Shown here: positions 4,695 to 19,936 of the stretch, one piece after another
How the letters are laid out: every line of letters starts with the position of its first letter
Position numbering within the stretch: position 1 is the stretch's first letter
Assembly: GCA_013813875.1 (NCBI GenBank)
Contig: JACCQZ010000046.1
Location: forward strand, 1-32,870
Source of the DNA: Gemmatimonadales bacterium
GTDB lineage: Bacteria; Gemmatimonadota; Gemmatimonadetes; Gemmatimonadales; GWC2-71-9
DNA: 32,870 bases
Reading direction: 5' to 3'
Position numbers and translations under genes: made by a program
The notes under the pieces: generated by a model
Seen by the model: the letters and a program-made list of their open reading frames with translations, nothing else
Database searches by the model: none
Told to the model about the DNA's origin: nothing

Positions 4695-5286
4695 ATGGGT
4701 TTGGTAGACCGCGTCAAGCGCATCCTGCGTGCCCCCCGGCAGGAGTGGCAGGTCATTGATGGTGAGGTCACTACGCCAGGGGACCTCTACAAGGGATACA
4801 TCGCACCGCTGGCGGCGATCGGGCCAATCGCCCAGGCGATCGGGTATTCGGTCTTCGGCCTCACCCTCCCATTCGTGGGTACCTATCGCACCCCGGTCGG
4901 CTCGGCCATCATCTCCGCCCTGGTGGCGTACGTGCTGACGCTGGTAGGGGTGTACGTGCTGGCGTTGATCATAGACGCGCTGGCACCCACCTTCGGCGGA
5001 ACCAAGAACCAGATGCAGGCGCTCAAAGTCGCTGCGTACTCCAGCACAGCAAGCTGGGTCGCCGGGATTTTCGCGCTGATCCCCCGCGCTCAGCATCCTC
5101 AGCATCCTCGGTCTCTACAGCCTCTATCTTCTCTATCTCGGTCTGCCGGTGCTGATGAAGGCGCCACCGGAGAAGGCCATGGGGTACACCGTCGTCGTGA
5201 TTCTGGCAGCAATCGTGCTGTTCATGATTATCGGGCTCGTCGCCGGGAGGTTTGCGGCGGGGCCGATGGGCGGGATGCCGAGCTAA
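4695..5286 (+). CDS. YIP1 family membrane protein, frameshifted
   Basis: An integral membrane protein resembling bacterial YIP1-family proteins. It opens MGLVDRVKRILRAPRQEWQVI, has AAGGAG seven bases before the ATG at 4695, and shows five hydrophobic segments. The frame breaks at a run of five C (5081-5085). With four C the protein continues ALSILSILGLYSLYLLYLGL and then VVVILAAIVLFMIIGLVAG, ending at TAA 5284-5286 as a 196-residue protein. As given, the first frame instead runs on to 5384 with a non-membrane tail. Both halves look intact and conserved in character, so a sequencing or assembly error in the homopolymer is likelier than old decay. The molecular role of bacterial YIP1 proteins is not well defined. 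Confidence 0.8.
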
Positions 5287-5296
5287 ACGTCGGAAA

Positions 5297-5325
5297 GGGG
5301 CGCGGATCACTGTCTCCGCGTCCCC
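5297..5325 (+). terminator. Hairpin after YIP1 gene, weak terminator candidate
   Basis: GGGGCGCGGA pairs with TCCGCGTCCCC (one bulged T) across a short loop, 10 bases after the YIP1 stop codon. Only TTT follows, beyond GGCGG, so intrinsic termination would be weak. The M48 gene begins 56 bases downstream. Confidence 0.35.
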
Positions 5326-5380
5326 GGCGGTTTAGGATACGGGCACTCGCCGTAGTGACAACGCGAACCGAGGAGTGTCC

Positions 5381-6877
5381 ATGAATCGACGTTTCGCCGT
5401 CGCGTACCGATCCCAGATCCGCTCGTTGCGGCTCCGCGCCTGCTTTGCTGCTGGAGTGGCCGCCGTGGGGCTGTCGGCTTGTGCCCGCAACCCGGTCACC
5501 GGCAAGAACGAGCTGGCCCTCGTCTCCGAAGCCCAGGAGATCGAGATGGGGCGGGGGGCCGCCCAGCAGGTGGAGCAGTCAATCGGGTTCGTCAATGATC
5601 CCCAGCTGCAGACCTATGTGGCCACCATCGGGAAGCGGATGGCGGCCCAGTCCGAGCGGCCCGAGCTTCCCTGGGAGTTCCACGTCGTCAACGACGCCTC
5701 GGTCAATGCCTTCGCGCTGCCCGGCGGCTTCATCTATGTCACTCGCGGGCTCTTGACCCACGTCGGCAACGAGGCCCAGCTGGCCAGCGTGCTGGGACAC
5801 GAGATCGGCCACGTCACCGCCCGCCATTCGGTGCAGCAGATCAGTAAGGCGCAGGTCGCCCAGTTGGGGCTCGGCCTCGGCAGCATCCTGTCGTCTGACG
5901 TCGCTCAGGTCGCCGGTATTGCCAGCCAGGGCTTGGGAATCCTTTTCCTCAAGTACGGCCGCGATGCCGAGAAACAGGCCGACGAGCTCGGATTCAAGTA
6001 CGCGCTGGGCCAGAACTACGACGTGCGGGAGATGGACGACGTCTTCGTCACGCTGGGCCGGGTCGGTGAGGCCGCCGGCGCCGGGCGGCTTCCCGAGTGG
6101 CTCTCCTCCCATCCCAACCCCGAGAATCGAGTGGAGAGCACCCAGGCAAGACTCGATTCCCTCTCCCGGGATCTCGGCAACCTCACGCTCGACCGCGACG
6201 AGTACCTCAGCCAGATCGCCGGGCTTACCTACGGGGAAGATCCGCGCCAGGGCTTCTTCGAGGGGAACGCGTTCTATCACCCCGATCTCCGCTTCCAGCT
6301 CGAGTTCCCCGAGGGCTGGCAGACCCAGAACACGCCCCAGGCTGTTGTCGCCGTAAGCGAGAGCCAGGACGCGATGATTCAGCTCGGATTGGCTGGGCGG
6401 ACCCCCCCCGGGCAGGCAGCCCAGCAGTTTCTCTCCCAGGAGGGGGTACGGGCCGGCCAGGCCTCGACCTCGAGCGTCAACGGCAATCAGGCGGCGTCGA
6501 GCTATTTCGAAGCGCAGACCCAGCAGGGCGCGGTGCAGGGGCTGGTATCGTTCATCTCCTACGGTGGAAACACGTACGGTCTGCTGGCCTATACCACCGC
6601 GGGAAAGCTGCAGCAGTACGACCGGGTCTTTCAGGAGGCCATCGGCAGCTTCAGCCAGTTGCGGAACCAGGCAGCGCTCAGCGTTCAGCCGGCCAAGCTC
6701 GAGCTGGTAAAGCTGAGAGAGGAAATGACACTGCAGGAGTTCAACGCCCGCTATCCTTCGACCGTGCCGATCGAGGAGCTGGCGATCATCAACGAGGTCG
6801 AGGGTCCGGCATCGGAGATTCCGGCGGGCCGAACGCTCAAGCGGGTGGTGGGAGGGCGGCCGAGCTCGACTGGTTGA
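5381..6877 (+). CDS. M48 family metalloprotease lipoprotein (BepA-like)
   Basis: A 498-residue zinc metalloprotease anchored as a lipoprotein. The N-terminus has a signal sequence ending LSAC (C34). The M48 catalytic motif HEIGH lies at residues 140-144 (ligands H140 and H144, catalytic E141), with third ligand E197 in EKQAD. This part resembles BepA/YfgC, which trims misassembled outer-membrane proteins in the periplasm. Instead of the BepA TPR domain, residues from about 290 form a domain that fits no repeat pattern I recognise. The tail LKLVKLREEMTLQEFNARYP resembles LysM-like C-termini seen in related Gram-negative proteins. The ATG at 5381 follows GAGGAG by five bases and is preferred over a GTG six bases upstream. 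Its role in outer-membrane quality control is inference from the family. Confidence 0.9.
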   Translation: MNRRFAVAYRSQIRSLRLRACFAAGVAAVGLSACARNPVTGKNELALVSEAQEIEMGRGAAQQVEQSIGFVNDPQLQTYVATIGKRMAAQSERPELPWEFHVVNDASVNAFALPGGFIYVTRGLLTHVGNEAQLASVLGHEIGHVTARHSVQQISKAQVAQLGLGLGSILSSDVAQVAGIASQGLGILFLKYGRDAEKQADELGFKYALGQNYDVREMDDVFVTLGRVGEAAGAGRLPEWLSSHPNPENRVESTQARLDSLSRDLGNLTLDRDEYLSQIAGLTYGEDPRQGFFEGNAFYHPDLRFQLEFPEGWQTQNTPQAVVAVSESQDAMIQLGLAGRTPPGQAAQQFLSQEGVRAGQASTSSVNGNQAASSYFEAQTQQGAVQGLVSFISYGGNTYGLLAYTTAGKLQQYDRVFQEAIGSFSQLRNQAALSVQPAKLELVKLREEMTLQEFNARYPSTVPIEELAIINEVEGPASEIPAGRTLKRVVGGRPSSTG

Positions 6878-7278: not shown

Positions 7279-8568
7279 CTACGACACCCTCCGCGTCTTC
7301 CGCTTCATGAAATCCATCAGAATGAACTGCCCCAGTGTCATCGTGTTGGTGAAGTACGCCTTGCCCTTGCAGATGGAGGCGACCTGCTTGACAAATTCCA
7401 CCAGGCTGCGGTCCCGCGCCAGCATGAAGGTGTTGATCATGATTCCCGCCCGCCGGCAGTTGGAAACTTCGCGGTAGGTGGCTTGCAGGATCTGAGGGTC
7501 GAGCCCCATCGAGTTCACGTAGATCCGGCCATCCGGCATGGTGAGCGCCGAAGGCTTGCCGTCGGTGATCATGATGATCTGGCGCATGTCCTTCTTCTGT
7601 CCCTGCAGGATGCGCCGGGCCAGCTTGAGGCCTTCCGCGGTGTTGGTGTGATAGGGCCCCACCTGCGCCGTTGCCAGCGCGCTCAGGGGGATCTCTTCCG
7701 CCGAGTCGTGGAAGAGGACGACCCGAAGGCTGTCGCCGGGGAACTGGGTGCGGATGAGGTGGGTGAGGGCCAGGGCCACTTTCTTGGCCGGGGTGAAACG
7801 GTCCTCGCCGTAGAGGATCATCGAATGGGAGCAGTCGAGCATCAACACCGTCGCCGCGGACGAGCGGTACTCCGACTGGCTCACCATCAGGTCGGAGTAT
7901 TCGATATTGAGCGGAACCCCGAGCCCTTCACGAGCGATGGCGTTGGTGAGCGTAGCGGAAACGTCGAGATTGAGGACGTCGCCGAACTCGTACGGCTTGC
8001 TCACCCCTTCGGCCTCGACGCCGGTGGCGAGGTAGGGGGTGTCGTGCGCCCCGAAGCTCGACTTCCCGACGCTTCCCAGCAGATTCTTGAGCGTCTTATA
8101 TCCCAGGAAGTCTATGCCCTTCTCGGTCAGGTTGAACTGAACCTGTTGGGCGGCGGAGTGGGCCTGTCCGCCGGGTCCGAACATCGGCTGATAGTCCTGC
8201 GGCACCTGGGGCGCCTGGCCGACGTTGAGATAACCCTCATCAATGAGCCGCTGAACGATCCGGTCGAGCAGCTCACCGAGCTGGCGCTCGATCTCGCGGT
8301 CCTTGCTCTCATCGCCGGTGGATTCGCCGCGCAGAACCTTGAGCATCTCGGGCGTGAGCTGCCCGGAGTCCATGAGCGCCTGCAGGATCGCCTGCCGCAG
8401 TGAGTCGAGCGACCTCTCGCCGTCTCCCATCTCGTCGTGCCAGAACGAGGGCGACCCTCCGGCGAACCCGGACTGCAGCAGAAAATCGCTGAGCTGGTCG
8501 AGCAACCCCTGCAGATTGACCGCGTCGGCCAGCTCGGGGTGGTATTTGGAGTAGGTGGTGAAGCGCAT
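7279..8568 (-). CDS. VWA domain protein, partner of MoxR-type ATPase
   Basis: A 429-residue protein with a C-terminal von Willebrand factor A domain. The metal-binding MIDAS motif DCSHS starts at D245, followed by a threonine in YHTNTAEGL and by ITDGKPS. The N-terminal 230 residues are helical and charged, with no signal peptide. Proteins of this type work with AAA ATPases of the MoxR/magnesium-chelatase class as metal-dependent chaperones or insertion factors. Such an ATPase is encoded nearby at 10631-12103 on the same strand, with two opposite-strand genes between. The start at 8568 ([13 protein letters not shown]) is chosen because anything upstream would translate the GTCGAAG repeat; no clear ribosome binding site is seen. 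The small lipoprotein gene follows downstream. Confidence 0.85.
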
Positions 8569-8596
8569 GATTGGGAATGGATAATTGGGGTGTGGT

Positions 8597-8665
8597 AAAG
8601 TCGAAAGTCGAAGGTCGAGGGTCGCCCGCACGACCTTCGACCTTCGACTCTTCGTCTTCGACTTT
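8597..8665. repeat. GTCGAAG-type hairpin, copy 1
   Basis: The left arm at 8597-8624 is made of AAAGTCGA, AAGTCGA and AGGTCGA units. The right arm at 8631-8665 is made of the complementary TTCGACC and TTCGACT units. The loop is six bases. The element fills the space between the divergent VWA and MFS start codons. Confidence 0.8.
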
Positions 8666-10630: not shown

Positions 10631-12103
10631 TCACCCAAACGATATCCCCCCCTTCCCATACCCCCCCTCCCTCCGCTCCGGCTTGGCGCGGGTATAGCCC
10701 AGCTCCTCGCTCCGGCTGATGCGCTTCTGGGCGGCGAGGCCTTCCAGGATCAGCTCGCAACCGGCCACGGTGCAGGGGATATCGCTCTTGGGGGAGAGGC
10801 CGCAATCGGCGACGGTTTCCACCAGGGTGGGGACCACGCTGAAGCCTTGGTGGCAGAGCTCCGAGCGCTCGTCGCCGGGGACTTTGAGTGCGCCGCCCTG
10901 ATCGAACCAGGCGATGATCCGGGCCAGATCGGCGCCGCCCATCCGTTCCTCCATGACCTTGCCGGCAGCGCGGCGGATGAGCTCCCGCGCGATGACGTCG
11001 CCTCCCTGCAGCTCGCCCTCGTACTCCAGCTCCAGCTTGCCGGTAATGGAGGGCACCGCGGCGTAGATGTCGCTCACCCGCGGCACGATCCGGCCCTCAC
11101 CCAGCGTCACCGAGCGTCGCTCGGCGTTGGAGAGAGCGTTTTCCAGCACGCTGATCGGCAGCCGCTGGCTCACGCCCGAGCGCTTGTCCACTCGCTTGTC
11201 TTCCCGCGCCTCGAACGCCACCCGCTCGATCACCTCGAGCACGAAGTCGGGAATATCGGGCGGCGCGCCGCCCCGGCTGATCCACGCCTCCTGCACTGTG
11301 ATCTCCATGCCCAGCTGCACGGTGCGGGGGTAGTGGGTGATGATCTCCGAGCCGATCCGGTCCTTGAGCGGCGTGATGATCTTGCCGCGCGCGGTGTAGT
11401 CTTCCGGATTGGCGGTGAAGGCCAGGAGCACGTCCAGCGGCAGGCGGACCGGATACCCTTTGATCTGGACATCACCCTCCTGCATGATGTTGAACAGTCC
11501 CACCTGCACCTTGCCGCTCAGGTCGGGCAGCTCGTTGATGGCGAAGATGCCGCGGTTGGCCCGCGGCAGCAGGCCGAAGTGCATGGTGAGCTCGTCGGAG
11601 AGCAGGTGTCCCCCCCGCGCCGCCTTGATCGGGTCAACGTCGCCGATCAGATCGGCGATGGTGACGTCGGGCGTGGCCAGCTTTTCGACGTAGCGCTGGT
11701 CCCGCCCCAACCAGGCGATCGGGGTGGCGTCACCGCATTCGGCCAGCATCTCGCGGGCGTACTTGGAGATCGGTCCGAAGGGGTCGTCGTTCACCTCACT
11801 GCCCGCCACGATCGGTATGCGCTCGTCGAGCAGCCCAGTGAGCTCCCGCAGGATCCGGCTCTTGGCCTGTCCCCTGAGCCCCAGCAAGATGAAGTGATGC
11901 CGTGCCAGCAGCGCGTTCACGATGTGAGGCAGGATGGTATCTTCGTACCCGACGATCCCGGGAAACAGCGGCGCGCCGGACTGGATGTGGCGAAGCAGGT
12001 TGTGCCGAATCTCATCGCGGACGCTCCGGCCCCTGAGCGGAGGCTCGGCCCAGGGAGTTCGCTTGAGGTCACCGAAAGTGCGTGGTTCGATCATATCGGA
12101 CAT
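10631..12103 (-). CDS. MoxR/magnesium chelatase-type AAA ATPase
   Basis: A 490-residue cytoplasmic AAA+ ATPase. The Walker A loop is GLRGQAKS (residues 75-82, K81). The Walker B-like strand is GIFAINELPD with E191, differing from the usual DE pair. VLLAFTANPEDYTARGKIITPLKDRIG matches sensor and arginine-finger regions of magnesium chelatase I and MoxR proteins. The C-terminal third is a helical extension with no recognised domain. Such ATPases act with VWA proteins to remodel or metallate client proteins, and the gene at 7279-8568 is the obvious candidate partner. The ATG at 12103 has only a weak GAG before it; a second in-frame ATG lies nine bases on. The client protein is unknown. Confidence 0.87.
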   Translation of the reverse strand: MSDMIEPRTFGDLKRTPWAEPPLRGRSVRDEIRHNLLRHIQSGAPLFPGIVGYEDTILPHIVNALLARHHFILLGLRGQAKSRILRELTGLLDERIPIVAGSEVNDDPFGPISKYAREMLAECGDATPIAWLGRDQRYVEKLATPDVTIADLIGDVDPIKAARGGHLLSDELTMHFGLLPRANRGIFAINELPDLSGKVQVGLFNIMQEGDVQIKGYPVRLPLDVLLAFTANPEDYTARGKIITPLKDRIGSEIITHYPRTVQLGMEITVQEAWISRGGAPPDIPDFVLEVIERVAFEAREDKRVDKRSGVSQRLPISVLENALSNAERRSVTLGEGRIVPRVSDIYAAVPSITGKLELEYEGELQGGDVIARELIRRAAGKVMEERMGGADLARIIAWFDQGGALKVPGDERSELCHQGFSVVPTLVETVADCGLSPKSDIPCTVAGCELILEGLAAQKRISRSEELGYTRAKPERREGGYGKGGISFG

Positions 12104-12541: not shown

Positions 12542-13528
12542 CTACCCATCCAGGTCGTCTCCACTGAAGGGCAGGGACGCTACCACGGCCTGGCGCCCAC
12601 CTACGATTACCTCGTGGCCTGGAGCGATCTCACGGCGGATGAGGGCGAGGCCCAGCGTACGGCCGTCGGTAGTAAGGGTTGAACGAACCGATCCGACCTC
12701 CTTGCCCGCGGCGAGGACGGTTCGTCCCTCGACCGGCTGCAGACCGTTCCAACGCACCCCGCGCAATTCCCGATTGGTGTGACCCCGGAAGTGGAGGCGG
12801 GCCACGGTCTCCTGTCCGGTGTAGCAGCCTTTGGTATAAGAGACCCCGCCGATCTCGTCGTAGCGAACCTCTTGCGGGAGGGTTCGTTCGTCAATCTCCA
12901 GACCGAGCGCGGGCCAGCCGGAGAGAATGCGGGCGGCGTGCAGGTCAGTCTCGTCCCCGGTCTTGGCGCCCGCATTTCGGAGCTGGTCCGCCACTCCCCC
13001 GACCGCGGGAGCCAGGCCCACCGCGACGGCCACGAACGGCGCCGACTCCGGGGCGAGGCCCACCAGTACCGGGCTCAGGTCGCCACCGACCGATACCGTC
13101 CGTCCGGCGGCCTCGGGCATGCCCACGCCGGACTGAGCCAGCGTCTGGAAGCCGTGGGCGCCGAGGAGCCATGCCGCCCGCGCCTCGCCAGTGAGATCGG
13201 TGACCTTGGCCAGGCGCGGCGGCAGGGCCCGTTGGAAGAGTGCGAGCGCCGCGTCGTGTCCCAGGCGCGGAATAACCAGGGTGAGGGCATCGCCCTGCCG
13301 GAAGGTCCACGCGTCCACCACGATCATGCCTTTGGGGGTGAGCAGCGCGCCGTAGACCAGGCTCCCGTCGCCCGGCTTGACCAGATCGTTGGTGAGCAGT
13401 CCCTGGAGGCAGGCGAGGGAGCCTGGGCCGGCAACCCGGAAGACGGCCGGCTCGGTCAGGACCACGGTGGCGCCGTACCGCACGTCCTCGAGCCGACCCC
13501 GCTCCAGGGTCAGGTCGAGCTCAGCCAT
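12542..13528 (-). CDS. ygfZ: Folate-binding protein YgfZ (GcvT-like)
   Basis: A 328-residue member of the YgfZ/GcvT/IBA57 family, which uses tetrahydrofolate to help assemble or repair certain Fe-S enzymes in the cytoplasm. The signature KGCYTGQE lies at residues 233-240 with the key C235. The N-terminal FRVAGPGSLACLQGLLTNDL and the C-terminal barrel (ALIRREIAPGHEVIVGG) also fit. The start MAELDLTLERG at 13528 overlaps the end of the HAD gene by eight bases, implying translational coupling; longer upstream frames are rejected. Its place in the glc gene run fits a job maintaining the Fe-S protein GlcF, which is inference. Confidence 0.9.
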   Translation of the reverse strand: MAELDLTLERGRLEDVRYGATVVLTEPAVFRVAGPGSLACLQGLLTNDLVKPGDGSLVYGALLTPKGMIVVDAWTFRQGDALTLVIPRLGHDAALALFQRALPPRLAKVTDLTGEARAAWLLGAHGFQTLAQSGVGMPEAAGRTVSVGGDLSPVLVGLAPESAPFVAVAVGLAPAVGGVADQLRNAGAKTGDETDLHAARILSGWPALGLEIDERTLPQEVRYDEIGGVSYTKGCYTGQETVARLHFRGHTNRELRGVRWNGLQPVEGRTVLAAGKEVGSVRSTLTTDGRTLGLALIRREIAPGHEVIVGGRQAVVASLPFSGDDLDG

Positions 13529-14183
13529 GGGTCCACGGCAACTCGGCCGGTTCGTGGCCAACGAAGTCCCGCCAGACCAGGTCGGCCTCGCCCAGAGCGC
13601 TCTCGGGGTGGGATGTAGCGAGCATGGCGCAGGGCAAACCGGCTGCACGCGCGGCGGTGAGCCCCGGGATGGAATCCTCGACGACCACGCAACGGCTGGG
13701 CTGCAGGGCCAGGGACGTACGGGCCCGATTGTACCCCTCCGGATCCGGCTTGCATGCGCTCACGTTCTCGGCCGCCACGATCTCGGCGAAATGAGGCCGC
13801 AGCCCAGCCAGATCGAGCACCAGGTCTATCTCCCGCCGCAACGCCGCGGACACGATGGCGAGCTGAAAGCCGTCGAGCGCCGCCGCCTCGATGAAGTCGG
13901 ATACACCAGGCACCAGCCGCATGGAATGGCGGACCGAGCGCTCGTAGTGGGTGCTCTTTCGCTCGACCGCCTGCAACAGGGTAGCGTCGTCTGCCGGGAG
14001 GCCGGCGCGTACGAAGCTGAAGCGGAAGCACTCCCGGTCGTCAAAGCCGAGATAATCGCGATAGTAGGTATCGCGGTCGAGGGTGTATCCGTATTCGGCC
14101 AGGGTGGTGGTAAGGGCATCGCAGTGCTGCGGCTCGTCGTCAATGATGACGCCGTTGAAATCGAAGAGGATGCCGCAGGTCAT
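13521..14183 (-). CDS. HAD family hydrolase, possible phosphoglycolate phosphatase
   Basis: A 220-residue haloacid dehalogenase-superfamily protein with a helical cap after motif I. Motif I reads LFDFNGVIIDDEP, with the nucleophile Asp kept but Asn where most phosphatases have the second Asp acid/base. Motif II is likely the serine in VSAALRRE, motif III CKPDPEGY, and motif IV VVVEDSIPGL. The family includes phosphoglycolate phosphatase and beta-phosphoglucomutase. Lying 49 bases after glcF, a phosphatase that makes glycolate from 2-phosphoglycolate is attractive but unproven. The ATG at 14183 opens directly on the core strand; a TTG at 14213 is the alternative. The 3' end overlaps ygfZ by eight bases. 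Confidence 0.82.
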   Translation of the reverse strand: MTCGILFDFNGVIIDDEPQHCDALTTTLAEYGYTLDRDTYYRDYLGFDDRECFRFSFVRAGLPADDATLLQAVERKSTHYERSVRHSMRLVPGVSDFIEAAALDGFQLAIVSAALRREIDLVLDLAGLRPHFAEIVAAENVSACKPDPEGYNRARTSLALQPSRCVVVEDSIPGLTAARAAGLPCAMLATSHPESALGEADLVWRDFVGHEPAELPWTHG

Positions 14184-14232
14184 GAGAGAAGGTATAACCG
14201 CCTGAAAGGCCAAGGGCGAGGTGGCGCTTGAA

Positions 14233-15519
14233 CTATTGGTACAGCCCCCCTGCCCGATAGCTCTGGTCCAGAAGTTCCACCGGATGGGCTACGCCAATGT
14301 CGAGACCGGCGGCCCTGAGGCCCGCGCCGATCTGCATCAGGCAGCCGGGGTTGCCGCTTGTCACCAGGCGCGGCCGGGGAGCGGCGGCGGCGATGCCGGC
14401 GATCTTGTCGTCGAGCACTGCGCGGGCCATGTCCGGCCGCAGCAGGGAATAGATCCCGGCGCTGCCGCAGCAGCGGTCGGAACCGGGAAGAATATCGAGA
14501 CGAAGGCCGGGAATGGCACGCAGCAGCGCAAGCGGCGCCTGGTGAACCCGCTGCGCGTGTTGCAGGTGACAGGGCGCGTCGTAGGCCACGTCGAGCTCGA
14601 GCCGCCCGCCGGCGCGCGGCCCCACGTCGGCGAGGAGCTCGGAGATGTCGCGCACCTTGGCCGCCATTGCCTGGGACCCGGCGGTCCCGAGCAGGTGGCC
14701 ATAGTCCTTGAGCAGGGCCCCACAGCCGGCGCTGTTGACGGCGATATAGTCGGCCGATGCGGCAAAGGCCGCGACGTTCTCCGCCGCCAGCGCTCGCGCG
14801 GCCTCGCGATCGCCGGCGTGCTGGTGCAGCGCGCCACAACAGACCTGCCCCGAGACCTCCAGCACCCGGTAGCCGTTGGCCTCCAAGGTGCGGCGGGTGG
14901 CGTGGTGCACGTGGCCGAACAGGGTGTCCATCACGCAGCCGCGAAAGAGGGCGACAGTGGGGTGGGTGGTGTTGTCACCGTTGTTGCCCAGAGCGGAGCG
15001 AAGGGGCCGTGCCTCAGGGTATGCCCCCTTCCCCCTCCCTCTGCTCGGGGTCAGGGTGACATCGCTTCGGGTGGCGGCCAGCATGCCGAGCCCGAAGCCA
15101 GCCCGTGCTCCACCGGCTAGTAAACCCGGTATCCCCGTGGCCCGGAATACCCGGGCCAGCGCGAACAGCGGCCGCCACAGCCACTGGTGGCGGAACACCC
15201 CGAGCACCGCGCGTGCGAGTGGCGGCAGGCCGCGTTCCTGAAACAGCCGCTCCCGTGCCATCTCCAGCCCGCGGCCGTAGCCAACTCCCGAGGGACAGAC
15301 CGGCTCGCATCCGCGGCAGCCCAGGCAGGCGTCGAGATGCTGCACCAGCCCCGCGTCTCCCGATCCGAGCTCACCTCGCTCGAGCGCGCGCATGAGCACG
15401 ATCCGTCCGCGGGGGCTGTCCGCCTCATCCCCAGTGGCGAGGTAGGTCGGGCAGGCCGGGAGGCAGAAGCCGCAGTGGACACAGGGAGCGAGGGGGTCGG
15501 CCGCGGCCGTGCTAGTCAT
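14233..15519 (-). CDS. glcF: Glycolate oxidase iron-sulfur subunit
   Basis: A 428-residue electron-transfer subunit of glycolate oxidase, passing electrons from GlcD toward the membrane quinone pool. Two 4Fe-4S motifs of form CxxCxxCxxxCP lie at C13-C23 and C65-C75. Two cysteine-rich CCG domains follow, with VCCGALHQHAG and DRCCGSAGIYSLL. Residues about 152-182, between the ferredoxin part and the first CCG domain, are encoded by a palindromic repeat (14974-15060) and read VTLTPSRGRGKGAYPEARPL; related proteins have only a variable linker there. The ATG at 15519 follows GGAGG and overlaps the glcE stop by eight bases. Apart from the insert the protein looks intact. Confidence 0.92.
   Translation of the reverse strand: MTSTAAADPLAPCVHCGFCLPACPTYLATGDEADSPRGRIVLMRALERGELGSGDAGLVQHLDACLGCRGCEPVCPSGVGYGRGLEMARERLFQERGLPPLARAVLGVFRHQWLWRPLFALARVFRATGIPGLLAGGARAGFGLGMLAATRSDVTLTPSRGRGKGAYPEARPLRSALGNNGDNTTHPTVALFRGCVMDTLFGHVHHATRRTLEANGYRVLEVSGQVCCGALHQHAGDREAARALAAENVAAFAASADYIAVNSAGCGALLKDYGHLLGTAGSQAMAAKVRDISELLADVGPRAGGRLELDVAYDAPCHLQHAQRVHQAPLALLRAIPGLRLDILPGSDRCCGSAGIYSLLRPDMARAVLDDKIAGIAAAAPRPRLVTSGNPGCLMQIGAGLRAAGLDIGVAHPVELLDQSYRAGGLYQ
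14974..15060. repeat. GTCACC/GGTGAC palindromic element inside glcF, copy C
   Basis: An 87-base element with ends GTCACC and GGTGAC, containing GAGCGGAGCGAAGGGG on the left, a centre CCTCAGGGTATG close to that of copy A, and CTGCTCGGGGTCAGGGTGAC on the right. Its length is a multiple of three, and it keeps the glcF frame open. One other frame reads CHPDPEQREGEGG, related to the CHPE-SEG signature of the other copies. Confidence 0.75.
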
Positions 15520-16729
15520 TCCCCGCCTCCAGCGCCACGCTGAGGCACTGTCTCGGATCGAAGCTGTCCCGCAGCCGTCCCACCAGCTGCCCCACTCCCT
15601 CGCGATAGGCCCCGAAGTGACCTAGCGCTCGGCGCAGAGCCCACGGAGCCCGCTCCAGAGTCATCGGGATCTCGCGAGCGGCGCCGGCGCGGCGAACCGC
15701 GCGCAACTGCTCGACCGGGGCGTTGCCGGTCCAGCGGATCATGCCGGCGCCGGCGCCCGCGGCCACCAGGCCTTCATCGAGGTCATGGGACAGCAGGTCA
15801 ATGCTGTCGTCAATTCCGTCGCCCAGCACGCCGAGCCGGAGGGTGATGGGCCCGCCGAGACTCCCCCGCGACACCATGCTCCAGAACGCCGCCGTACGGT
15901 CGGTGGGGACCGGTTGCCAGGGAAGCTCGCCCAACGAGGACAGCCGGCGGACGTCGGCTTGAACCGCCGCGTCGGTGCCCACGAAGCGGGCCGCGAGGAT
16001 CCAGTCGGCCTCGGCGGCGAGGGCGGGAGAGAGGAGCTCGAGCGCGCCGGGCAGGAGGCGGGCCGCGATCAGGTCGCGGGCGGCGGAGGTGAGCGTATCC
16101 CGCGGCCCGCGTGCCAGGAGGGTCACGTCCGCCCGCGGCAGCGCGCGCAGGCGGAGATGAACTTCGGCGATAATCCCGAAGCCGCCGAACCCGCCAACGT
16201 GAAGCTTGGTGAGGTCGTACCCCGCGACGTTTTTCACGACCCGGCCGCCGGCCTTGACCAACCGCCCGTCGCCGGTCGCCACGGTGCAGCCGAGCACGTG
16301 GTCGCGAACCGGACCGAAGCCTTGGCGCAGCGGCCCGGCGGTGGCGGTCGCGATAATGGATCCGACGCTGCGTTCCGGCCGGCCCGGCGGGTCGAGGGCC
16401 AGCCACATCCCCTCTTCCGCCAACCGGCGTCGCACCGAGTCGAGAGTCGCCCCCGCCTGAACCGTGGCGACCAGATCGGCCGGACTCACCGAGACCACTT
16501 GGTCGAGCCCTCGAGAGCTCACGGCCAGGTCGGCGGGGGCGTCGGAGGGGAGCCAGGTGCCTCGGCCCTCGATCCGGATCTTCCAACCCTCTTCGTGGGC
16601 CAGGCGGCAGACCAGCGACAGCGCGTCGGCGGTGTCCGGGGTGGCGCAAGGAAGCCCGTCGGCATCGCGCTCTACGCCGCTGGTGCCGAGCAGCGCGCGA
16701 AGCCGGGCGAAGATGGCATGATCGCTCAT
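15512..16729 (-). CDS. glcE: Glycolate oxidase FAD-binding subunit GlcE
   Basis: A 405-residue FAD-binding protein of the PCMH type, the second flavin-fold subunit of glycolate oxidase. IRIEGRGTWLPSD, LDPPGRPERSVGSIIATATAG and VVKNVAGYDLTKLHVGGFG are characteristic of GlcE, which is shorter than GlcD and lacks the GlcD HAGDGN motif. The ATG at 16729 shares bases with the glcD stop codon (ATGA) and is preceded by AGGGGGG, so coupled translation is likely. It overlaps glcF at the other end. A partial role in binding FAD or stabilising GlcD is known for the family. Confidence 0.9.
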   Translation of the reverse strand: MSDHAIFARLRALLGTSGVERDADGLPCATPDTADALSLVCRLAHEEGWKIRIEGRGTWLPSDAPADLAVSSRGLDQVVSVSPADLVATVQAGATLDSVRRRLAEEGMWLALDPPGRPERSVGSIIATATAGPLRQGFGPVRDHVLGCTVATGDGRLVKAGGRVVKNVAGYDLTKLHVGGFGGFGIIAEVHLRLRALPRADVTLLARGPRDTLTSAARDLIAARLLPGALELLSPALAAEADWILAARFVGTDAAVQADVRRLSSLGELPWQPVPTDRTAAFWSMVSRGSLGGPITLRLGVLGDGIDDSIDLLSHDLDEGLVAAGAGAGMIRWTGNAPVEQLRAVRRAGAAREIPMTLERAPWALRRALGHFGAYREGVGQLVGRLRDSFDPRQCLSVALEAGND

Positions 16730-18144
16730 CGGACCCCCCTGGCGGCGCGCCACTCCCGGCAAGCGTGCAGCGGGATGACTTTTCCCGGATTGGCCCGCTC
16801 GGCCGGGTCGAACACCCGCCGCACCGCGCGCATGGCGCCGAGCGTCTCCGCGTCGAAGATCGAGGGCATGTAGTCAATCTTGTCGGAACCGACTCCATGC
16901 TCCCCGGTAATGCTTCCGCCGGCCGCGACGCAAGCGGCCATGATGTCCCGGCAGGCGTCGTGCACCCGGCCGGCCACATTCGGATCGCGCCGGTCGAAGC
17001 TGATATTGGGATGCAGGTTTCCGTCTCCCGCATGGAAGACGTTGCTGATGGTGAGTCCGTAGCTCAGGCGGATCTCTTCGATTCGATCCATGATGTCGGG
17101 CAACGCCGAGCGGGGGACGACGGCGTCCTGCACCGCGAGGTCGGGCGCGATCCGGCCCATGGCGCCGAACGCCTTCTTCCGCCCCTGCCACAGCCGGGCG
17201 CGATCGGCCGGGGTGGAGGCGCTCCGCACCGTCCGCGCCCCCCGCTCCTGCAGCAGGGAGACGACGGTTTTCGCCTCTGCCTCCACCGCATCGGTCTGGC
17301 CGTCGAGCTCCACCAGGAGCACCGCGGCGGCATCGGTGGGATAGCCGGCGGCGTAGATCGAAGCCTCGACCGCGGCCACGCAGGCCCGATCCATCATCTC
17401 CAGAGCGGCGGGGACGATTCCCGCGGCGATGATGGCCGATACCGCCTGACTCGCGGCGCGCACCGTGGAAAAATCGGCGAGCATGGTTCGCACGCTCTCG
17501 GGCAGCGGCTCGAGCCGCACGGTGATCTCGGTGGCTATCCCGAACATTCCTTCGCTGCCCACGAAGAGCCCCACCAGATCGGGGCCCCACGGCTCGCCTT
17601 GACGGGAGCCCAGCCGGGTGGTGGAACCGTCGGGCAGCACCACCTCGAGCTCGACGATGTGATTGGTGGTCACGCCGTACTTGAGACAGTGAGGCCCGCC
17701 CGCGTTCTCGGCCACGTTGCCGCCCACGGTGCACGCCGCCTGACTCGAGGGGTCGGGCACGTACTGGAGACCGTGGGGAGCGGTGGCCTCGGAGAGTCGC
17801 GCGTTGACCACGCCCGGCTCCACCCGCGCCCGCCGCCGGCAGGGGTCCACCTGCAGAATGCGATTCATCCGTCCCAGCGCGATGAGTACCGCGTCGGGAT
17901 CGGCGACGGCGCCGCCGGAGAGACCGGTTCCCGCTCCCCGGGCCACGAACGGCACGTCCACCAGATGCAGCAGCCGCACTACCTCGCACACTTCACCCGC
18001 GGTCTTCGGCATGACCACCACGCCGGGATAGGACTCACGGGTGGGTAACCCATCCATAGTGTAGGTGGCCAGCTCAGCCCGCCGGTGCCGCAGCCAGCGC
18101 GGCCCCACGATTCGGCCGAGGGCCTCGATGAGCTCGGGCTTCAT
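16726..18144 (-). CDS. glcD: Glycolate oxidase catalytic subunit GlcD
   Basis: A 472-residue FAD-linked oxidase, the catalytic subunit oxidising glycolate (or a related 2-hydroxyacid such as D-lactate) to glyoxylate. The flavin PCMH fold shows RGAGTGLSGG at residues 69-78 and CTVGGNVAENAGGPHCLKYG. The C-terminal FAD-oxidase domain has FHAGDGNLHPNISFD and GEHGVGSDK. The ATG at 18144 overlaps the stop of the LON-domain gene as ATGA, which fixes the start; an extended upstream frame is rejected. It is followed by glcE and glcF, so the complete three-subunit enzyme is present. The D-lactate alternative is less likely because all three glc genes are together. Confidence 0.93.
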   Translation of the reverse strand: MKPELIEALGRIVGPRWLRHRRAELATYTMDGLPTRESYPGVVVMPKTAGEVCEVVRLLHLVDVPFVARGAGTGLSGGAVADPDAVLIALGRMNRILQVDPCRRRARVEPGVVNARLSEATAPHGLQYVPDPSSQAACTVGGNVAENAGGPHCLKYGVTTNHIVELEVVLPDGSTTRLGSRQGEPWGPDLVGLFVGSEGMFGIATEITVRLEPLPESVRTMLADFSTVRAASQAVSAIIAAGIVPAALEMMDRACVAAVEASIYAAGYPTDAAAVLLVELDGQTDAVEAEAKTVVSLLQERGARTVRSASTPADRARLWQGRKKAFGAMGRIAPDLAVQDAVVPRSALPDIMDRIEEIRLSYGLTISNVFHAGDGNLHPNISFDRRDPNVAGRVHDACRDIMAACVAAGGSITGEHGVGSDKIDYMPSIFDAETLGAMRAVRRVFDPAERANPGKVIPLHACREWRAARGVR

Positions 18145-18809
18145 GTTCCAGCGAGCAGGTCGGGGTGGCCCGACCCTTGGCCGTTGGTGGGGGCGCACCG
18201 GTGGACCCGAAGTGCCGATTCGACGGCGCTGGTGAGAATCGGAAGCAGAAGAAGCAGGGCACCGACCCGCCGCGCCGTCGAGCGCTCGGCGAGCAGGCGC
18301 TGCTTGACCCCGGGATCGCACTCGACGGCGGCGGCTACGTGGAAGGAGAGCTCCAGCGGCACATCGGGAAGGGTAGGCTCATCGGGCCCGATGTCGTTGA
18401 GCTGCCGAAGCAAGGCGTAGTAGCGTTGGAACTGTTGGCGCAGGCGGGTAAGCTCATCGTCCGGCGGAGCGGTAGCCGGCTGCTCATCGAAGGTCTCCAC
18501 CAGCGCGACGTGGTAGGGCACCGCCTCTTCCAGCACGCGCACCACCACAAATCGCTGCCCCCCGACCACGACGATGGTTGCCCGGCCGTCGGGCAGATCC
18601 TGGTGCACCCGGATCTCCGCGATGCACCCCACCGTTCCGGCGTCCGGCACCTCCCCAGCCGCCCCCGGCGGCGTGATCCCGAACTTCCGCTCTCCCGCAA
18701 GACAATCCGCCAGCATCTGCTGATACCGCGGCTCGAAGATGTGCAGCGGCAGTGGAGTGCCGGGAAAGAGGACGGCAGAGAGAGGAAAGATCGGGAGACG
18801 AGCGGGCAT
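18141..18809 (-). CDS. LON substrate-binding domain protein
   Basis: A 222-residue protein made only of the N-terminal substrate-binding domain of Lon protease: RLPIFPLSAVLFPGTPLPLHIFEPRY and CLAGERKFGI are characteristic. A helical tail follows, with no AAA or protease part. Stand-alone LON-domain proteins (YcaO/PUA-LON type) are common in bacteria and their function is poorly known; peptide recognition is a family-based guess. The ATG at 18809 begins the domain at once, while the longer frame runs into the AAGTGACA repeat and is rejected. Its stop codon overlaps the glcD start, so it is the first gene of the glc run after the repeat. Confidence 0.85.
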   Translation of the reverse strand: MPARLPIFPLSAVLFPGTPLPLHIFEPRYQQMLADCLAGERKFGITPPGAAGEVPDAGTVGCIAEIRVHQDLPDGRATIVVVGGQRFVVVRVLEEAVPYHVALVETFDEQPATAPPDDELTRLRQQFQRYYALLRQLNDIGPDEPTLPDVPLELSFHVAAAVECDPGVKQRLLAERSTARRVGALLLLLPILTSAVESALRVHRCAPTNGQGSGHPDLLAGT

Positions 18810-18960: not shown

Positions 18961-19854
18961 TTACGCCGCCCCCCAATACCCCCTGAGCGAGCGAATATCC
19001 GGCGAGTCGCGCAGCTTCTCGAAGGCGCGCTCGCGGATCTGGCGGATGCGCTCGCGGGTGACACCGAGCAGCTCGCCGATCTTTTCGAGCGTGAGCGCCT
19101 CGGAGCCCTCTTCCAGGCCGTAGTAAAGGGAGAGGATCTTCTGTTCGCGAGGGGTGAGGTGACGCTGGAAGATGCGGTCTATGAACTCGCGCTGAAGACG
19201 CGCGTCCGTCATCTCCTCGATCTCGATGGAGCCGGTGCCGGCTACCCGATCGCCGAAGGTGCTGGCGCTGCGCTCCTGCCGCTCGACCGGTGCGTCGAGC
19301 GAAACCTCCGTGGAGGTCATCCGCCGGGCGGAGCGGATGTTGTCTACGGTGTCGTTGAGGGCGGTCGCGATTTCCTGGTCGGTGGGCTCGCGGCCCAGCT
19401 CCTGAGCCAGGAAGCTCTGGGCTCTCCCCATGCGTACCAGCGCGGAGTTCTGGTTCAGGGGGATCCGCACACTTCGAGTCTGCTCCGCGAGCGCTTTGAG
19501 CACTGCCTGGCGAACCCACCAGACCGCGTAGGAGATGAACTTCACGCCGTGATCGGGATCGAACTTCTTGACCGCCTTGAGCAGTCCCTCGTTGCCGATG
19601 GCCACCAGCTCGGAGAGGTCGAGGCCGTGCCCCTGGTACTTCTTCACGTAGGAAATCACGAACCGCAGGTTGGCGGTCACCAGCCGCTCGGCCGCCAGGT
19701 CGTCTCCGGCCAGGGCGCAGCGAGCCAGACGCTTCTCCTCGGCGGGGTCGGAGATCATGGGGAGCTTCTGGATGTCCAGGAGGTACTGATCGAAGGCGCC
19801 GGAAGGAGATGCGCGCACGATTGCGCGGACTTTCCCGGGACGTACGTGGGCCAT
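18961..19854 (-). CDS. RpoD/SigA-family RNA polymerase sigma factor
   Basis: A 297-residue sigma-70 factor that directs RNA polymerase to promoters. Region 1.2 (SGAFDQYLLDIQKLPMIS) is present but region 1.1 is absent. Region 2 contains RLVTANLRFVISYVKKYQG, DLSELVAIGNEGLLKAVKKFD and FISYAVWWVRQAV. Region 3 has GREPTDQEIATALN. Region 4 has LTPREQKILSLYYGL and TLEKIGELLGVTRERIRQIR. It could be the principal factor of a phylum with short SigA, as in Bacteroidota, or a group 2 paralogue; the sequence alone does not decide. The ATG at 19854 is preferred to a TTG two codons upstream. A strong promoter lies upstream. Confidence 0.88.
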   Translation of the reverse strand: MAHVRPGKVRAIVRASPSGAFDQYLLDIQKLPMISDPAEEKRLARCALAGDDLAAERLVTANLRFVISYVKKYQGHGLDLSELVAIGNEGLLKAVKKFDPDHGVKFISYAVWWVRQAVLKALAEQTRSVRIPLNQNSALVRMGRAQSFLAQELGREPTDQEIATALNDTVDNIRSARRMTSTEVSLDAPVERQERSASTFGDRVAGTGSIEIEEMTDARLQREFIDRIFQRHLTPREQKILSLYYGLEEGSEALTLEKIGELLGVTRERIRQIRERAFEKLRDSPDIRSLRGYWGAA

Positions 19855-19936
19855 AAACAACCCCGCAGAAGGTTGAACCTGACTACAGGAATGTGACGAG
19901 TGCGCCGACCAGAGCTATTCGAGGAGAGGAGCAGCC

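Follow-up and report, generated by a model that had tools for sequence, protein, structure and literature searches.

The closest described counterpart of the locus analysed here is glcDEF of Escherichia coli, which encodes three subunits of the same families, presumably in the same order. Genes for GlcDEF have been reported from metagenome-assembled genomes (MAGs) of Gemmatimonadota (PMC10581226), and the excerpts of that paper available to us mention neither a HAD gene nor ygfZ beside them. COG0354/ygfZ genes commonly cluster with those of Fe/S proteins, according to excerpts of PMC3223725, and a 2023 paper (PMC10002905, in part) calls the exact role of YgfZ/IBA57 in Fe-S cluster metabolism uncharacterised. 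In the present study, we analysed a stretch of 32,870 nucleotides from a Gemmatimonadales bacterium (assembly GCA_013813875.1, contig JACCQZ010000046.1, positions 1 to 32,870; hereafter, the window), which contains a row of six genes: a LON-domain gene, glcD, glcE, glcF, a HAD gene and ygfZ. This row is probably a glcDEF-ygfZ operon of known type that carries a conserved HAD pseudo-phosphatase, for which we infer an accessory or regulatory role that involves ligand binding. Neither GlcDEF nor YgfZ nor the clustering of their genes is new; the new part appears to be the conserved HAD pseudo-phosphatase in that place. A search of open-licence PMC papers found neither a description of such a protein at this position nor a paper linking glcF with ygfZ.

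The features concerned are as follows (bit scores, with cut-offs in brackets):
18141..18809, minus strand: LON substrate-binding-domain protein, 222 amino acids (aa); PF02190, 110 bits (28.7)
16726..18144, minus strand: glcD, FAD-linked 2-hydroxyacid oxidase subunit, 472 aa; PF01565 (FAD_binding_4) and PF02913 (FAD-oxidase_C); TIGR00387, 455 bits (568)
15512..16729, minus strand: glcE, FAD-binding subunit, 405 aa; PF01565 (FAD_binding_4), 88 bits; NF008439 GlcE, 130 bits (284)
14233..15519, minus strand: glcF, iron-sulphur subunit, 428 aa; PF02754 CCG (two stretches) and 4Fe-4S dicluster; NF008434, 243 bits (333)
14184..14232, minus strand: 49-base gap between glcF and the HAD gene
13521..14183, minus strand: HAD-fold protein similar to beta-phosphoglucomutase (beta-PGM) and CbbY, 220 aa, with a natural Asn10; PF13419 (HAD_2), 102 bits (23.8)
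14154..14162, minus strand: motif I of the HAD protein, codons 8-10, Asp-Phe-Asn
12542..13528, minus strand: ygfZ, folate-binding Fe-S maintenance family protein, 328 aa; TIGR03317, 87.2 bits (49); GCV_T, 42.9 bits (25.6)
18961..19860, minus strand: sigma-70 factor, RpoD/RpoS-like, 299 aa; PF04542/04539/04545

From the LON-domain gene to ygfZ, the junctions are overlaps of 4, 4 and 8 bases, the gap of 49 bases and an overlap of 8 bases. The coordinates and the Pfam/NCBIfam families confirmed exactly the six genes, their strand and their spacing as given in an earlier note on this DNA; judging from family knowledge, the six genes would be cotranscribed. Two features go beyond that note, namely the sigma-70 gene upstream and motif I of the HAD protein, which reads D-F-N-G rather than D-x-D.

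By fold and Pfam family, the HAD protein of the window (ILFDFNGVIIDDE) belongs to the C1-capped beta-PGM/CbbY group. It has the fold and motifs II-IV in common with CbbY (xylulose-1,5-bisphosphate phosphatase) and beta-PGM; relative to HADs of the beta-PGM type, the nucleophile Asp8 as well as Ser112, Lys145, Glu169 and Asp170 are present, and the acid/base position 10 is occupied by Asn. This Asn10 is natural, whereas in CbbY (4uat/4uau) and beta-PGM the D10N exchange was engineered to trap ligand. The AlphaFold models are confident (predicted local distance difference test 94.2 for the window protein and 92.6 for one HAD of f2, a sister family in the same order), and the modelled HADs matched CbbY, beta-PGM and the phosphatase domain of MtlD in the PDB. 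The best match of the window model was CbbY 4uar (E 2.9e-17, template-modelling score 0.81), followed by the D10N mutants 4uau and 4uat; according to the entry title, the CbbY D10N mutant was crystallised with substrate. The models thus suggest that the fold is intact despite the altered active site. Excerpts of PMC11283535 state that D10N beta-PGM is unable to protonate the leaving group.

GlcF, HAD and YgfZ were each searched in 150 genomes of the phylum Gemmatimonadota, to which the source organism (assembly of 3.30 Mb, 363 contigs, 85.8% complete) belongs, the nearest named relatives of its HAD protein being gemmatimonad MAGs among the matches listed. We fetched 120 neighbourhoods from 120 of the 149 other genomes: all those of the draw from the family of the window (f1, 35) and from two other families of the same order (f2, 53; f3, 2), and 30 of 59 from other families. 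They were annotated by phmmer and with models built from these same loci. Of the 90 same-order loci, 83 were usable with glcF (29 f1, 53 f2 and 1 f3), three being cut at contig ends and four having no glcF. The alignment of glcF-adjacent HADs comprised 47 sequences (the window, 14 f1, 1 f3 and 31 f2), since an f2 HAD (L154) and an f3 fragment (L100) were too short.

A complete catalytic set (D8, D/E10, S/T112, K/R145, D170) was found in none of the 47 glcF-adjacent HADs, in contrast to all 10 chosen non-adjacent gemmatimonad paralogues (L004, L007 and eight non-adjacent loci among L058-L069; L005, with the motif DAGN, L008, with DIDGT, and L009 were omitted). The DxD outgroup rows of the alignment had been picked for DxD, and their full set is no test. 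Asp8 and Asn10 are kept in 15 of 15 rows of one alignment (A1; the window, f1, one f3 and L185). In f2 the change extends to the nucleophile: position 8 is Glu in 22, Ala in 7 and Asp in 2 of the 31 aligned sequences, position 10 is Glu (18), Asp (12) or His (1), and Lys145 and Asp170 are kept in 19/31 and 18/31, respectively. The nucleophile is thus lost in 29/31 aligned f2 HADs, and in 30/32 according to a loose regular expression applied to raw open reading frames, which misread seven rows from the other families (6 f1 and 1 f3) and matched the alignment for f2. The two f2 HADs that retain it (L104 and L105) have neither Lys145 nor Asp170. An assembly error or frameshift as the origin of the odd motif was ruled out, as the 47 aligned rows come from 47 genomes and have open frames.

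The HAD gene is under purifying selection: across 17 pairs of species, among which some species recur, the ratio of nonsynonymous to synonymous divergence (dN/dS) ranged from 0.09 to 0.45. Ten of the pairs are from f2 and lack the nucleophile. These ratios, which are rough because synonymous differences are partly saturated (pS up to 0.67), led us to reject pseudogene decay. In 13/17 pairs the value for HAD did not exceed the higher of those for GlcF and YgfZ (one pair had no YgfZ value). Moreover, f2 has fixed residues of its own, R20 (31/31), D65 (31/31) and R116 (30/31). In a tree built without the motif I columns, the f2 HADs form one branch (support 100; length of the branch leading to it 0.76), and the adjacent HADs of f1, f3 and f2, together with those of L185, L194 and L195, are separated from the remaining sequences by a branch with an SH-aLRT support of 83. 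Judged by sequence, one origin of the adjacent HADs is likely but not proven.

As to the gene order, ygfZ lies no more than 4 kb downstream of glcF, and on its strand, in 80 of the 83 loci (29/29 f1, 50/53 f2, 1/1 f3), and a HAD gene stands between the two in 45 (12/29 f1, 32/53 f2, 1/1 f3). The check proposed in the earlier note, conservation of HAD and ygfZ beside glcF, was thus borne out in related genomes, and the lack of such conservation, which the note had set against its own proposal, is not what was found. Since the order recurs across the order Gemmatimonadales, the row is not due to chance; the operon is genuine at the level of the order and belongs to a known kind, a COG0354/YgfZ gene beside an Fe-S protein. 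The 30 loci fetched from other families showed neither ygfZ after glcF nor an intervening HAD gene; in one of the 29 unfetched genomes (G097), a remote paralogue of glcF (42% identity) has ygfZ some 2 kb away, on the other strand. In 35 of the 83 loci glcF and ygfZ occur together without the HAD gene, and in 27 of these ygfZ starts no more than 90 bases past the end of glcF (offsets of model envelopes). In the 17 f1 genomes of this kind, the best HAD match elsewhere had an E value of 1.4e-17 or worse and at most 33% identity among the matches listed (three genomes had no match), as against 2e-52 or better for glcF-adjacent f1 HADs; on this sequence evidence we treat the orthologue as absent from them. 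The LON gene appears to be an optional member, found upstream of glcF in 12/29 f1 and 7/53 f2 loci with a model built here. The sigma-70 gene lies upstream in at least 24/29 f1 and at least 42/53 f2 loci, some loci being cut. In some f1 loci a gene resembling alpha/beta hydrolases by eye (L090, 7002-8087; L093, 4018-5172) lies between glcF and HAD/ygfZ.

The glc genes were lost in genus g3 and its relatives. L185 (genome G044) has the sigma gene, a lone GlcE-like gene (4781-5989), HAD and ygfZ; no GlcF match was found genome-wide, and glcD is also gone from that place (GlcD was not searched genome-wide). In L194, GlcE (1-993; the contig ends inside glcE) is followed by HAD and ygfZ with no glcF between, L195 has sigma, HAD and ygfZ, and L186-L188 have sigma and ygfZ only, so that the sigma gene persists in L185-L188 and L195 where glcF is gone. 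A lone FAD subunit thus accompanies HAD and ygfZ in L185 and L194. In the tree, the HADs of L185, L194 and L195 fall within f1; all three are kept beside ygfZ, which indicates that HAD can outlive glcF. The strong HAD matches in the phylum (E 1e-45 or better; 18 genomes, including that of the window) adjoin ygfZ or a contig end.

Beyond Gemmatimonadota this link is a narrow one, and a universal HAD-YgfZ association is not claimed. A wider scan, in which the best 80 of at least 513 relatives were kept, gave 61 non-gemmatimonad loci, 23 with DxN and 38 with DxD; ygfZ occurred within the sequence fetched (at most 6 kb on either side) in 9/23 of the former and 0/38 of the latter. Lineage explains much of this contrast, since the DxD set is mostly Nitrospira and the nine ygfZ-linked loci share two gene orders (Pfam on representatives): (i) LysR-YgfZ-[Rieske and/or Nudix]-HAD-SDR-ThiI in seven, and (ii) c50 hydrolase-YgfZ-HAD in two. 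In one non-gemmatimonad lineage (L236, L255, L231), ygfZ is followed by a gene of 100-130 aa, assigned by Pfam to Rieske proteins in L236, with a natural DxN HAD 1-2 kb beyond. Among 99 genomes of the phylum that harbours one of the ygfZ-linked loci (G150), the HAD-YgfZ pair was found only in G150 itself among the matches listed; this is a weak test, DxN occurring in 3/30 fetched loci (L270, L277, L283), with L279 cut and the HAD of G199 on a contig fragment. Natural DxN HADs were also seen in Acidobacteria (L204, L210, L211, L222, L235), with no ygfZ within the fetched stretch. The DxN HAD subfamily is therefore wider than this operon.

The oxidase itself has the domain make-up of GlcDEF, three subunits of the right families in one gene row, and GlcF carries CxxCxxCxxxCP at residues 13 and 65 and CCG at 227 and 350. 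This supports, at the level of families, the identification in the earlier note, and we file the row as GlcDEF-type only. In its GlcF 4Fe-4S and CCG motifs and in the malate synthase encoded in the genome it resembles the E. coli system; unlike that system, it scores below the curated equivalog cut-offs, it is coupled to ygfZ and HAD, and no lactate/glycolate permease (PF02652) was found in the genome at its 85.8% completeness. Glycolate oxidation is plausible in view of the reports of glcDEF from the phylum and of the malate synthase gene; D-lactate and other 2-hydroxyacids may also be substrates. A tblastn search of GlcF against plasmids (best match 40% identity) was not used.

YgfZ of the window carries KGCYTGQE at residue 233, the KGCYxGQE motif shared with the YgfZ/COG0354/IBA57 family, and its TIGR03317 score lies above the cut-off. 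Clustering with Fe-S genes is a known trait of this family; what differs from the family in general is the near-fixed position after glcF in this gemmatimonad order. The proposal of the earlier note that YgfZ protects the clusters of GlcF holds in so far as the gene lies beside that of an Fe-S subunit; service to GlcF specifically is unproven, because ygfZ is present in 144/150 genomes of the phylum and is kept without an adjacent glcF orthologue in L186-L188.

In the mechanism that we favour, GlcDEF would oxidise glycolate (or a related 2-hydroxyacid) and release the electrons via the clusters of GlcF; the glyoxylate formed could then enter malate synthase. YgfZ would aid the insertion or maintenance of 4Fe-4S clusters, GlcF being one of several clients. 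The HAD protein would be a C1-capped protein other than a phosphoglycolate phosphatase, which has lost the proton-transfer residue in f1 (Asn10) and, in nearly all f2, the nucleophile as well. Most likely, to judge from its sequence, it is non-hydrolytic and serves as an accessory or regulator of the ygfZ-glcDEF module by binding either a partner protein or an anionic ligand, phosphorylated or not. It is a candidate new partner for YgfZ/IBA57, open to testing, and the graded series from DxD outgroups through DxN to ExE/AxD offers material for studying the change from phosphatase to pseudoenzyme. A more specific version, which we put forward only tentatively, is that the HAD protein is a pseudoenzyme dedicated to YgfZ/GlcDEF, a former CbbY-like phosphatase turned into a ligand-gated factor for the assembly or quality control of 4Fe-4S enzymes, its site dismantled stepwise (DxD to DxN to ExE/AxD) with the gene locked to ygfZ; if so, sister lineages would represent successive stages in the making of a pseudophosphatase.

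Several observations weigh against an accessory or regulatory pseudo-phosphatase. The HAD gene is dispensable, as the 35 loci without it show, and moderate support is all that the tree gives to a single origin of the f1, f2 and f3 HADs. In 4/17 pairs its dN/dS exceeds those of both GlcF and YgfZ (L103/L108, 0.365 vs 0.185 and 0.204; L150/L154, 0.284 vs 0.152 and 0.136; L165/L179, 0.447 vs 0.276 and 0.311; L090/L091, 0.146 vs 0.141 and 0.111). As GlcD, GlcE and GlcF all score below their equivalog cut-offs, it is also uncertain which substrate the oxidase uses. Finally, f1 keeps D8, S112, K145, E169 and D170 (one row is cut by a contig end), which resembles a working phosphate/Mg site. This last point also speaks for the alternative, which we consider rather unlikely, that the DxN HADs of f1 are still enzymes acting on an unusual substrate whose leaving group needs no acid (e.g. 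an acyl or enol phosphate), or slow phosphoryl traps, and that f2 lost activity later. The natural DxN HADs of other phyla fit this view, as does PfISN1 D172N, which, according to excerpts of PMC7320144, does not hydrolyse inosine monophosphate (IMP), binds IMP with an apparent Kd of 4.5 uM, and shows a 91-fold increase in activity on p-nitrophenyl phosphate, outpacing the wild type. A D-to-N exchange can thus leave hydrolysis with good leaving groups possible, and f1 may be active; f2 is not rescued in this way, because 29/31 of its HADs have no nucleophile. Catalysis is not what f2 conserves, since its orthologues hold their gene place and remain under purifying selection without that residue, which speaks against this alternative.

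It is improbable that the HAD gene is a mere passenger, a drifting former enzyme retained by its operon position. Its absence from many loci, the long f2 branch and several fast pairs would suit such a fate, but dN/dS is well under 1 in 17/17 pairs, the reading frames are open and packed tightly against glcF, the predicted folds are confident, and specific residues are fixed in f2.

The label 'HAD phosphatase' in a glycolate operon suggests the phosphoglycolate story, and the earlier note accordingly proposed that this protein makes glycolate from 2-phosphoglycolate for GlcDEF; the sequence argues against ordinary chemistry of this kind. Because the leaving group of 2-phosphoglycolate, an alkoxide, is a poor one, the acid/base residue of motif I should matter; this residue is Asn instead of Asp in the window protein and its aligned f1 and f3 counterparts. 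With Gph the window protein shares the HAD superfamily and a cap; it has no DxD pair and reaches 64.4 of the 180 bits required by TIGR01449, a cut-off passed by only 1/14 control genomes and hence weak evidence alone. The proposal is very unlikely: the place of the gene between glcF and ygfZ and its CbbY-type relatives favour it, but HAD is kept without glcF in three loci, no RuBisCO was detected in the incomplete assembly, and a separate HAD candidate on contig 112 of the same genome, with the motif DLDGT, scores higher (112.7 bits, also below the cut-off) and has matches of at least 127 bits in 68/101 genomes of the phylum, its own included (motif I of the others was not looked at).

Two further genes of the window lie downstream on the same strand, outside the module: a weak Mg-chelatase/AAA+-like gene (10631-12103), with NCBIfam scores far below cut-off, and a VWA-domain gene (7279-8631). 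In Nitrospira (L250, L247), the DxD relatives of the HAD protein are clustered with a squalene/phytoene synthase gene and an amine-oxidase-type FAD gene, a cluster which we take to be hopanoid-like.

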